Assembly: GCA_029563075.1 (NCBI GenBank)
Contig: JAKQTN010000055.1
Span: 1-61,072, forward strand
From: Pseudomonadota bacterium
GTDB taxonomy: Bacteria > Pseudomonadota > Gammaproteobacteria > Burkholderiales > Methylophilaceae
Reading direction: 5' to 3'
Length of the DNA stretch: 61,072 nt
Part shown: one piece after another, positions 57,293 through 59,772 of the stretch
Position numbering within the stretch: position 1 is the stretch's first letter
Layout of the letters: every line of letters begins with the position of its first letter
Notes under the pieces: model-generated
Database searches by the model: none
Seen by the model: the letters and a program-made list of their open reading frames with translations, nothing else
Told to the model about the DNA's origin: nothing
Made by a program: the position numbers and the translations under genes

Positions 57293-57769
57293 ATGAGTTT
57301 AGAAGGCGTCCTGGAAAAAGGCTTTGTCACCACCACGCTGGATACGGTGATTAATTACACACGTACCGGCTCCATGTGGCCGATGACGTTCGGCCTGGCC
57401 TGCTGTGCGGTAGAGATGATGCATGCGGGTGCTTCGCGCTACGATCTGGATCGCTTCGGTATCGTGTTTCGCCCAAGTCCGCGCCAGTCCGATGTGATGA
57501 TTGTGGCAGGTACGCTTGTCAACAAAATGGCACCAGCTTTGCGCAAAGTTTACGATCAAATGGCGGAACCACGCTGGGTGATTTCGATGGGTTCGTGTGC
57601 CAATGGCGGTGGTTACTATCACTATTCCTACGCGGTGGTGCGTGGATGCGATCGCATCGTGCCGGTGGATGTGTATGTGCCAGGATGCCCGCCGACTGCA
57701 GAGGCCTTGCTGTATGGCATTATTCAATTGCAGAAAAAAATCAGGCGCACCAATACCATTGCACGCTAA
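57293..57769 (+). CDS. nuoB: NADH-quinone oxidoreductase subunit B
   Basis: The 158-residue subunit binds iron-sulfur cluster N2. Ligands are the tandem cysteines in [11 protein letters not shown], the Cys in MGSCANGG and the Cys in [11 protein letters not shown]. It starts 1 bp after the nuoA stop. Confidence 0.97.
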
Positions 57770-57784
57770 CCCATAATAAAAACC

Positions 57785-58378
57785 ATGTCCGCTAAACTAG
57801 ATCATTTATCCGCACAGCTTAAATTGGCTTTAAGCGGCTATATTACAAAGCACACGGTTGCTTTGGGTGAAATTACCATCGAATGCAAGGCAGAGCATTT
57901 CATCGAGGTATGCGCCAAGGTGCGTGACCATGCCGAGCTTAAGTTTGAGCAGCTGATTGATTTATGCGGTGTCGATTATGCTGATTACAAAGATGGCACA
58001 TGGGAAGGCGCGCGTTATGCCGTAGTGCTACATTTGCTTTCAGTCAGTTTGAATCAGCGTGTACGGTTGCGTGCGTTTGCACAGGATGACGATTTTCCTG
58101 TGTTGCCAACCTTGGTTGATATGTGGCCTGTTGCAAATTGGTATGAGCGAGAGGCCTTTGATTTATTTGGCATTATGTTTGAAAACCATCCTGATTTGCG
58201 CCGCATATTGACGGATTATGGTTTTGTCGGTCATCCGTTCCGTAAAGATTTCCCCATGATAGGTAACGTTGAAATGCGTTACGACCCCGAGCAACAGCGT
58301 GTGATTTATCAGCCGGTTTCGATTGAACTGCGCAATAACGTGCCGCGCGTGATTCGAGATGAAGGTGCACATGGCTGA
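57785..58378 (+). CDS. nuoC: NADH-quinone oxidoreductase subunit C
   Basis: The 197-residue peripheral-arm subunit (30-kDa family) has [39 protein letters not shown]. It is a separate gene here, not the NuoCD fusion of E. coli. Its stop lies in ATGGCTGA, the start of a duplicated nuoD 5' end. Confidence 0.96.
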
Positions 58379-58403
58379 GATTAGAAACTATACGATGAAT
58401 TTT
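58371..58403 (+). repeat. Duplicated nuoD 5' end, copy 1
   Basis: A 33-bp segment that matches 58519-58551 at 31 of 33 positions (differences: first base A versus G, and T versus C at position 30). The copies are 148 bp apart. Copy 1 retains the ancestral-looking ATG and ribosome-binding site. Confidence 0.9.
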
Positions 58404-58526
58404 AGCTTCGGCCATTCGATGCAAAATCAATCGAACTTAACTTGCTGGCGCAAGTTAGCCTGCACTGAAATTCATCATAAACGCTTTTCAAAGCAAGATT
58501 TCTCGAAAGTTAACTATAGTGGCTGA
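58371..58526 (+). CDS. Possible 51-codon bridging ORF made from a duplicated nuoD start
   Basis: The ATG at 58371 overlaps the nuoC stop and has GAAGG eight bases upstream. The first eleven codons ([11 protein letters not shown]) equal those of NuoD. The frame then runs through unrelated sequence (one CWRKLAC segment) and stops at TGA 58524-58526, inside the real nuoD start GTGGCTGA. A ribosome could pass from nuoC to this ORF to nuoD by overlap coupling. Whether the peptide matters is unknown. Confidence 0.4.
58394..58476 (+). other. Predicted three-way-junction structure in the nuoC-nuoD insert
   Basis: The outer stem is GATGAATTTTAG (58394-58405) with CTGAAATTCATC (58465-58476), 12 bp with one G-T pair. 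It encloses hairpin TTCGAT/ATCGAA (58415-58420, 58430-58435) and hairpin TAACTTGC-TGGC-GCAAGTTA (58438-58457). It could be an mRNA structure or a structured mobile DNA. No known RNA family is recognised. Confidence 0.5.
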
Positions 58527-58551
58527 GATTAGAAACTATACGATGAACTTT
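58519..58551 (+). repeat. Duplicated nuoD 5' end, copy 2
   Basis: This copy forms the actual start of nuoD. It begins with GTG instead of ATG, and no clear Shine-Dalgarno sequence precedes it. Confidence 0.9.
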
Positions 58552-59772
58552 GGCCCGCAGCATCCGGCTGCACATGGCGTGCTGCGCCTGGTGCTGGAGC
58601 TGGATGGGGAAGTGATTCAGCGTGCTGATCCACATATTGGCTTATTGCATCGCGCGACTGAAAAGCTGGCGGAAAATCGTACTTACCTGCAATCAGTGCC
58701 TTACATGGATCGCCTCGATTACGTCTCGATGATGGCAAACGAGCATGCCTATGTGATGGCGATTGAAAAGATGCTGGGCTTGGACGTGCCAGTCCGCGCG
58801 CAGTACATTCGCGTGATGTTTGACGAGATTACGCGCGTGCTGAACCATTTGCTCTGGTTAGGCGCGCATGCGCTGGATGTGGGCGCGATGACGGTGTTTT
58901 TATATGCTTTCCGCGAGCGCGAAGATTTGTTTGATGTGTATGAAGCGGTTTCTGGCGCGCGCATGCACGCGGCGTATTACCGTCCAGGCGGCGTATATCG
59001 CGATTTGCCCAACCAAATGCCACAGCATGAAACCACTAAATTTAGAAGTGCGAAAGAAATCAGCAAGCTCAATGAAAATCGCCAGGGTTCGGTGCTGGAT
59101 TTTATCGAAGACTTCACCAACCGTTTTCCTAAGTATGTGGATGAATATGAAACCTTGCTCACGGATAACCGTATCTGGAAGCAGCGTACGGTGGGCATCG
59201 GCGTGGTGTCGCCTGAACGTGCATTGGCACTGGGCATGACCGGACCGATGCTGCGCGGTTCTGGCGTGGAATGGGATTTGCGTAAAAAACAGCCCTACGA
59301 AGTGTATGCTGATTTGGATTTTGACATTCCAGTGGGTGTGAATGGCGACTGTTACGACCGTTATCTGGTGCGCATGGAAGAATTCAGGCAATCTAATCGT
59401 ATTATCAAGCAATGTGTGGATTGGCTGCGCAAAAACCCGGGCCCGGTAATTACGGCGGACAACAAAGTGGCGCCGCCTGACCGCGAGAGTATGAAAACCA
59501 ATATGGAAGACATGATTCACCACTTTAAATTGTTTACCGAAGGTTTCCATGTACCAGCAGGTGAGGCCTATGCGGCGGTGGAGCATCCCAAAGGCGAGTT
59601 TGGCATTTACATGATTTCAGATGGCGCCAATAAGCCATATCGCTTGAAAATACGTGCGCCAGGTTTCCCGCATTTGGCAGCGTTGGATGAGATGACCAAA
59701 GGGCACATGATTGCCGACCTGGTAGCGATTATTGGTACGCAGGATATAGTCTTTGGCGAGATAGATAGATAG
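58519..59772 (+). CDS. nuoD: NADH-quinone oxidoreductase subunit D
   Basis: The 417-residue 49-kDa subunit helps form the quinone site: [49 protein letters not shown] and the C-terminal [17 protein letters not shown] are all present. The start is the GTG of the second copy of a duplicated 5' end. nuoE follows after 4 bp. Confidence 0.97.

Follow-up and report, generated by a model that had tools for sequence, protein, structure and literature searches.

Integrative elements that restore the end of a gene at their attachment site carry an integrase gene and measure kilobases in length. Integron attC sites are folded single-strand sites with an imperfect stem, a variable loop, and RYYYAAC and GTTRRRY boxes. 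Mobile ORFs with replacement C-termini have been described in fungal mitochondria – in Glomus atp6, atp9, cox2 and nad3 and in Allomyces atp6 – and in the part of the article that treats them, displaced native ends match relatives at 91–98%, inserted ends are diverged, and a horizontal origin is inferred (PMC3630166). The YPAL/RU-2 repeat is described, in the available part of its report, as a MITE-like sequence of 168 bp with target duplications of 3–26 bp (PMC2229807). The feature analysed here, at the junction of nuoC and nuoD, is probably a copy of a very small mobile element of the Burkholderiales that has no ORF of its own and carries a substitute gene end.

The window, the whole stretch of 61,072 nucleotides of Methylophilaceae DNA that was analysed, was originally predicted to have the 5’ end of nuoD duplicated around an insert, and this duplication was found. 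A 33-bp nuoD 5’ end occurs twice, as an upstream copy, X’ (ATGGCTGAG...), and a downstream copy, X (GTGGCTGAG...), with 31 of 33 bases identical and an offset of 148 bp (Table 1); a repeat search of 57700–59500 gave a 35-nt pair with 94% identity as the longest direct repeat. The upstream copy holds the native place of the gene, as had been proposed, with the nuoC stop falling within it (GGC TGA over ATG GCT GAG), and the full-length nuoD of 417 amino acids starts at the downstream GTG. The intervening DNA had been described as unlike nuo, and it is not nuo coding sequence. It includes a conserved hairpin element, here called E. An inverted repeat (58391–58405 / 58465–58479) forms a strong palindrome whose left arm is nuoD sequence, and a frame runs uninterrupted from X’ across E to a stop that overlaps the nuoD start. 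Of 200 shuffles of the 181-nt region, 199 have a less stable RNA fold than the native sequence (z-score −2.76). Two codons distinguish X from X’, one of them the start codon. Compared with the nuoD ends of 21 relatives that lack E, X’ is at least as close as X for 20 of the 21, a contrast that rests on two sites.

Table 1. Features of the nuoC–nuoD junction in the window.
Feature	Position	Strand	Basis
nuoC; stop overlaps displaced nuoD start	57785–58378	+	ORF list; name from the original prediction, synteny and homology
X’, displaced upstream copy of nuoD 5’ end, ATG start	58371–58403	+	Sequence comparison
Candidate leader frame, 51 codons and stop, from X’ through E to nuoD start (TGGCTGA)	58371–58526	+	ORF reading
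E, conserved hairpin element	58400–58470	+	Covariance model, 64.5 bits; structure counts
Stems of E: outer; GGC / GCC; inner	58400–58405 / 58465–58470; 58410–58412 / 58458–58460; 58438–58445 / 58450–58457	+	
Inverted nuoD tip (TTCATCATA), lengthens palindrome to 15 nt	58471–58479	+	Inverted-repeat pair; family-wide statistic
Spacer 5’ of functional start	58480–58518	+	Sequence differs among nuoD cases read
Proposed inserted unit, 148 bp, after TTTT to end of X	58404–58551	+	Analogy with folE2 filled/empty pair
X, functional nuoD 5’ end, GTG start	58519–58551	+	Sequence comparison; ORF
nuoD, 417 aa	58519–59772	+	ORF

The same junction was read in 29 relatives, the loci returned from a search of 60. 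Twenty-two of these have nuoD directly at the nuoC stop, with no insert, which bears out the expected usual arrangement. Four (G036, G028, G022, and G050 of another family) carry a related insert, which sits at the identical base of nuoD and is accompanied by the same duplication. The insert is also present in G106, G206, G208 and G210, as two tandem units in G206. Since related insertions occur at one nuoD base in several independent assemblies, an assembly artefact is unlikely.

E is a dispersed, structure-conserved repeat family of the Burkholderiales. Its core is TTTTAGYTHCGGC–(optional hairpin)–TTAAC–stem-loop–GTTAGCCTNCACTGAAA. Occurrences of a 16-base E tag, with at most one mismatch, number 107 in 63 of 187 genomes of the family, against 26 for the backwards tag. 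A structure of 17 pairs, specified by us, is kept in 92.4% of cells across 29 aligned copies, with 33 cells changed on both sides (11.4 in shuffles); weaker measures are 7 pairs changed on both sides (4.7 in shuffles) and 18 further pair types (17.6 in shuffles). Comparison of the insert with its own genome and family, which had been suggested along with the original prediction, found eight matches to a covariance model of E in the window’s own genome; at E-values ≤0.01 the model matched 86 of the 187 genomes in the family and 100 of the 300 from the order. At a stricter E-value of ≤1e-4, a class sample of 274 genomes had no match in the 273 besides the window’s own. An exact pattern scan of genome contigs found at least 117 stretches, and the 80 titles among the matches listed were betaproteobacterial or only broadly named. 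The exact pattern had no match in viral contigs, and phage cargo was set aside as an explanation. Nor is E a known structured RNA by Rfam: with E-values up to 10, 58000–59000 had no match in the insert, and the one match (SNORD99, 58076–58138, E-value 2.6) was below the cut-off. What had been seen as an insertion into the nuo operon with a long nuoD duplication is thus both of those things, but it is not a one-off event: its hairpin family is found at this nuoD base in other genera and at the ends of many further genes.

Among 87 copies of E found by pattern, the 83 with enough flank were analysed. The order along E is X’, TTTT, E, GAAA with the inverted X tip, spacer, X, TTTT, gene body. Direct repeats flush with the TTTT and scoring at least 34 were found in 33 of the 83 copies (24 of 63 without the tandem cases) and in 9 of 2000 mismatched pairs, which were random draws from the 83 elements and retain some orthologues; that the clear flush duplicate is limited to these 33 copies is a counter-weight to the mobile-element reading. 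The controls of an earlier duplicate search, on the loci of the window’s genome and the tandem loci, likewise include orthologous loci. In 40 of the 83 copies, the ten bases after E together with AAA are the reverse complement of the downstream tip with its TTT (at most three mismatches in 13; 1.8 expected), while the same test against the upstream tip gave 12 of 83 (ca. 1 expected). The base that follows the TTTT of X is C in 27 of 35 cases; the search pattern and the flush requirement partly impose the T-run, but not the C. Flanking repeats are gene ends, often diverged, and the T-run alone is common to the sites when these are examined for identical target repeats. In 26 non-tandem cases the unit, measured from the TTTT of E through X, is 88–168 bp long.

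Both sets of loci together gave 95 distinct scored duplicate pairs, 81 of which could be assigned a gene. Fifty-eight are at the 3’ ends of genes, with E antisense, and 23 are at 5’ ends, with E sense. From recognition of their sequences, we take the 5’-end loci to include nuoD, selD, a thiolase, a CobW-type GTPase and a glutathionylspermidine synthase, and those at 3’ ends presumably include folE2, dps, ftsW, accB, an aminotransferase, argF and tkt, as well as typA, dapD, norD, ccmE and others. Six E copies were read in the window’s own genome; two have a gene-end duplicate (nuoD and ftsW) and four do not. ftsW units were found in 6 of 19 genomes read (G031, G203, G000, G009, G010 and G092), one of which is the window’s own, and the other 13 are without; in G000, G009 and G010 the units share a sequence after the ftsW stop that by eye resembles the start of murG.

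Filled and empty sites could be compared at folE2, where units of 134–137 bp are found in 7 of 22 genomes of the genus of G113. The folE2 bodies of G108 and G109 are 97% identical, and G109 has no unit there. With 134 bp removed, G108 folE2 matches the empty site of G109 at 214 of 226 positions. The X’ of G108 is 98% identical to the folE2 end of G109, while its X is 72% identical to its own X’ and 97% identical to the X of the G113 unit, although G108 and G113 share 83% identity in the gene body – nearly identical units in genes that differ by 17%. The junctions are sharp: until the junction the gene body tracks G109 rather than G113, and beyond it X’ likewise tracks G109. Because X’ is like G109 and X is like the G113 unit, the folE2 units insert precisely, carrying a foreign gene end. 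This decisive evidence is from one pair at one locus, and the other filled folE2 genomes are less clear. A second type of unit is common to G107, G124 and G127, with X 93–95% identical in bodies that are 81–84% identical; the X’ of G127 is 88% identical to the nearest empty relative and 92% to the G108 unit. The X’ of G113 is at best 87% identical to any native folE2 end, X and X’ of G119 are 93% alike, and the X’ of G125 is too degraded for comparison.

The folE2 result also bears on the target duplication that had been proposed as the origin of the repeat. In an explanation of that kind, close to the original prediction, the hairpin repeat entered nuoD and the adjoining target was duplicated in place, with vertical inheritance and unequal crossing-over accounting for everything later; it may take the form of a long target duplication, or of fold-back template switching that also makes the inverted tip. 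The 31/33 identity of X and X’ in the window is what would be expected from such an event, as are the tandem units with nearly identical gene ends (G206 nuoD, G056 folE2, G100 argF), the inverted tip would be an expected remnant of fold-back synthesis, and this may be the route by which a unit first arises at a new gene. However, the second folE2 end in G108 is foreign and was carried in, and most differences between X and X’ are synonymous, also at loci where X’ is not translated, a pattern that a decaying local copy does not produce. Target duplication thus fails at folE2, and as a general account the local event is unlikely; the window’s own copy could have originated locally. By analogy with folE2, the X of the window would be a foreign gene end; its differences from X’ are in two codons, too few for a foreign origin to be demonstrable there.

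The synonymous pattern is seen in the mismatches between X and X’ at first, second and third codon positions, which number 85, 29 and 243 at 3’ ends and 37, 14 and 65 at 5’ ends, totals that include apparently wrong frames (e.g. L129, L141, L189, L207, L231 and L233). Since X’ lies beyond the stop at 3’ ends, coding selection on X’ cannot explain the third-position bias. To judge from these sequences, the divergence of X and X’ must predate their meeting and date from when each was a separate functional gene end.

Such a meeting could also be passive, if insertions cross species solely by homologous recombination of imported DNA and E is inert. Units common to different species are consistent with this, as is the failure to find an enzyme. 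However, no donor-like tract is found on either side of the G108 unit, the mismatches between X and X’ begin right at the junction, and the structure of E is conserved at many unrelated genes. Ordinary recombination tracts are expected to end variably inside X’, so that X and X’ would be alike near E. In the 55 pairs with less than 93% identity, the mismatch fraction is 0.13–0.25 over the first 30 scored bases, with no drop towards E; we read this as probable site-specific insertion. Homologous-recombination tracts were rejected on these grounds, and passive spread is improbable, well behind the local event.

Fifteen nuoD insertions have both copies of the gene end; L136, an E adjacent to nuoD with no recognised X’, was excluded, and the series is neither random nor independent, with several loci from one genus. 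Across it, 45 codons differ between X’ and X, 44 of them synonymously. L143 (G224) has one non-synonymous change in X’ and a left flank that does not resemble nuoC. E is 47–71 nt long at nuoD, with a length of 2 mod 3 in 15 of 15 (16 of 55 at 3’-end loci), and the frame of X’ is open through E in all 15, spanning 39–51 codons. Its end falls in the range from 24 nt upstream to 8 nt downstream of the start of X, and in 14 of 15 is no more than 15 nt away from it. In 8 of 15, including the window, the leader stop and the nuoD start overlap, mirroring the nuoC stop at the native junction. The open leader frame, continued across E as far as the new start, suggests selection for coupling, and we infer from these frames that nuoC–nuoD translational coupling is maintained via a short leader peptide. 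The least probable of the explanations – that the insert is retained as a regulatory leader, for nuoD coupling or attenuation, and that its mobility is incidental – accommodates the open frame, the E length of 2 mod 3 and the stable RNA fold at nuoD, but not the antisense orientation of E at 58 of the 81 called gene ends, by which the fold does not serve one mRNA role, nor the 22 of 29 relatives without a nuoD insert, nor the lack of an overlapping Rfam family; a leader role fits better as a secondary adaptation.

For the mobile element carrying a substitute gene end, which we prefer, a mechanism can be proposed. The unit (148 bp at nuoD in the window, 134–137 bp at folE2) would consist of E, the inverted tip, the spacer and the substitute gene end. 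Its site of entry would be a T-run, in most cases with a C after it, close to either terminus of a conserved gene, and entry there would be precise. The gene would be rebuilt because the unit terminates in its own version of that gene end, with the native X’ displaced outwards and orphaned. At 134–148 bp, the unit is without an ORF large enough for an enzyme, and at nuoD the 51-codon leader is the sole frame that runs through it. With no ORF, a conserved fold and E in either orientation, the unit may be moved by a putative enzyme acting in trans, via an intermediate that is either folded single-stranded DNA or a small circle. As E can be sense or antisense to its host gene, it is most probably as DNA that the fold acts. 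In a circle, the X tip and the inverted tip would extend the stem of E into a long hairpin with the gene end as its loop, resembling the substrate of a single-strand recombinase. A fold-back template switch at insertion could yield the inverted tip and the first duplicate at a new gene. At nuoD, the displaced start, which overlaps the nuoC stop, would open the leader frame through E to the new start and so maintain coupling.

A mobilising enzyme or an autonomous relative was not found among the ORFs of E loci, in a search for far copies, or in a search for Y1 transposases. At three loci E copies lie ca. 1.3–3.4 kb apart; their ORFs look unrelated, judged by eye and not by a family search. For 45 elements without a clear near duplicate, the DNA up to 5 kb on each side was scanned for a distant copy of the left end, with one match (L209, score 42).

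By comparison with the described systems, E would work most like the fungal ORFs with replacement C-termini, and it does not appear to belong to any of the systems compared. As in the fungal case, so far as the relevant part of PMC3630166 describes it, a carried, diverged end rebuilds the gene, the displaced end matches relatives (98% at folE2), and the protein ends are nearly unchanged; the fungal mobile ORFs there encode a LAGLIDADG or GIY-YIG endonuclease, involve C-termini and are mitochondrial. The E unit, in contrast, is ca. 0.14 kb with a conserved hairpin, no endonuclease ORF was found in the units of 134–148 bp, and gene 5’ ends are used too. The combination of a diverged inserted end and a native-like displaced end was found at one locus (folE2, G108 relative to G109 and G113). 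Integrative elements are similar in that they carry a gene end that rebuilds the target; the E unit has no integrase ORF and is far shorter. Like attC, E would be a folded single-strand site, but its outer ends, read by eye against the consensus, have neither RYYYAAC nor GTTRRRY (the R’’ and R’ boxes), and on this reading by eye identity with attC is not supported. E is similar to the REP elements of REP/RAYT systems, as the available part of PMC3733652 presents them, in being a short, dispersed palindrome that is often 3’ of genes; it differs in that E units carry gene ends. No GTAG or CGTC tag was seen by eye at the hairpin foot in 29 aligned copies. Y1 transposase is absent from 6 of 13 E-bearing genomes searched, including the window’s own, and is thus not required, and a REP/RAYT system was rejected; the transposase is found in 3 of 15 genomes without E matches. 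YPAL/RU-2, from what is available of PMC2229807, shares with E a length of less than 200 bp, a lack of coding sequence, internal inverted repeats and a position adjoining a duplicated target, but the duplicate at E is a homologous, diverged gene end of ca. 33–80 bp that restores the gene. In the open-access literature, a scope that does not establish its absence from print, no description of such an element was found, and two longer strings of E sequence did not occur there among the matches listed.

A broader proposal, for and against which we are evenly balanced, is that these units represent a new class of bacterial element: a non-coding hairpin of ca. 0.14 kb that homes, throughout the Burkholderiales, to fixed sites at the ends of many housekeeping genes, is moved by a recombinase acting in trans on folded single-stranded DNA, spares its host through the replacement gene end that it brings, and transfers short coding segments between species. 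If so, bacteria, rather than fungal mitochondria, would have a homing-like element that replaces gene ends and is reduced to a hairpin without coding sequence, and it would account for synonymous shuffling at the ends of nuoD, ftsW, folE2, dps, argF and tkt, among other core genes. Gene ends shuffled in this way can mislead gene trees and annotation. The question of which enzyme moves the hairpin precisely to the T-run at the end of a given gene becomes testable, and the nuoD series suggests how an operon absorbs an insertion, by the leader frame staying open.

Several other arrangements of E and of hairpins at this junction were observed. Tandem arrays of two to five near-identical units, spaced ca. 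74–145 bp apart, are found at L154 (G056 folE2), L161 (G100 argF), L157 (G214), L162 (G205) and L040 (G206 nuoD), and such arrays indicate that units can amplify in place. Two E loci of the window’s genome, L149 (C12 near 189403) and L151 (C38 near 14376), have flanks in common and no gene-end duplicate, so E occurs in another repeated context as well. Short-unit forms at what is apparently one gene end (L174, L179 and L190) have an inverted tip that makes a near-perfect, small-loop hairpin with the gene tip. Three of the 29 relatives (G026, G025 and G034; loci L015, L017, L027, and L027 on the minus strand) have a different hairpin repeat between nuoC and nuoD, and this junction seems to be an insertion hot spot. 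The second repeat contains GTACTGTC and CGCCTTGTC, only ca. 8 bp of the nuoD start is repeated with it, and in a quick scan of the loci analysed its pattern had two matches without a long duplicate.
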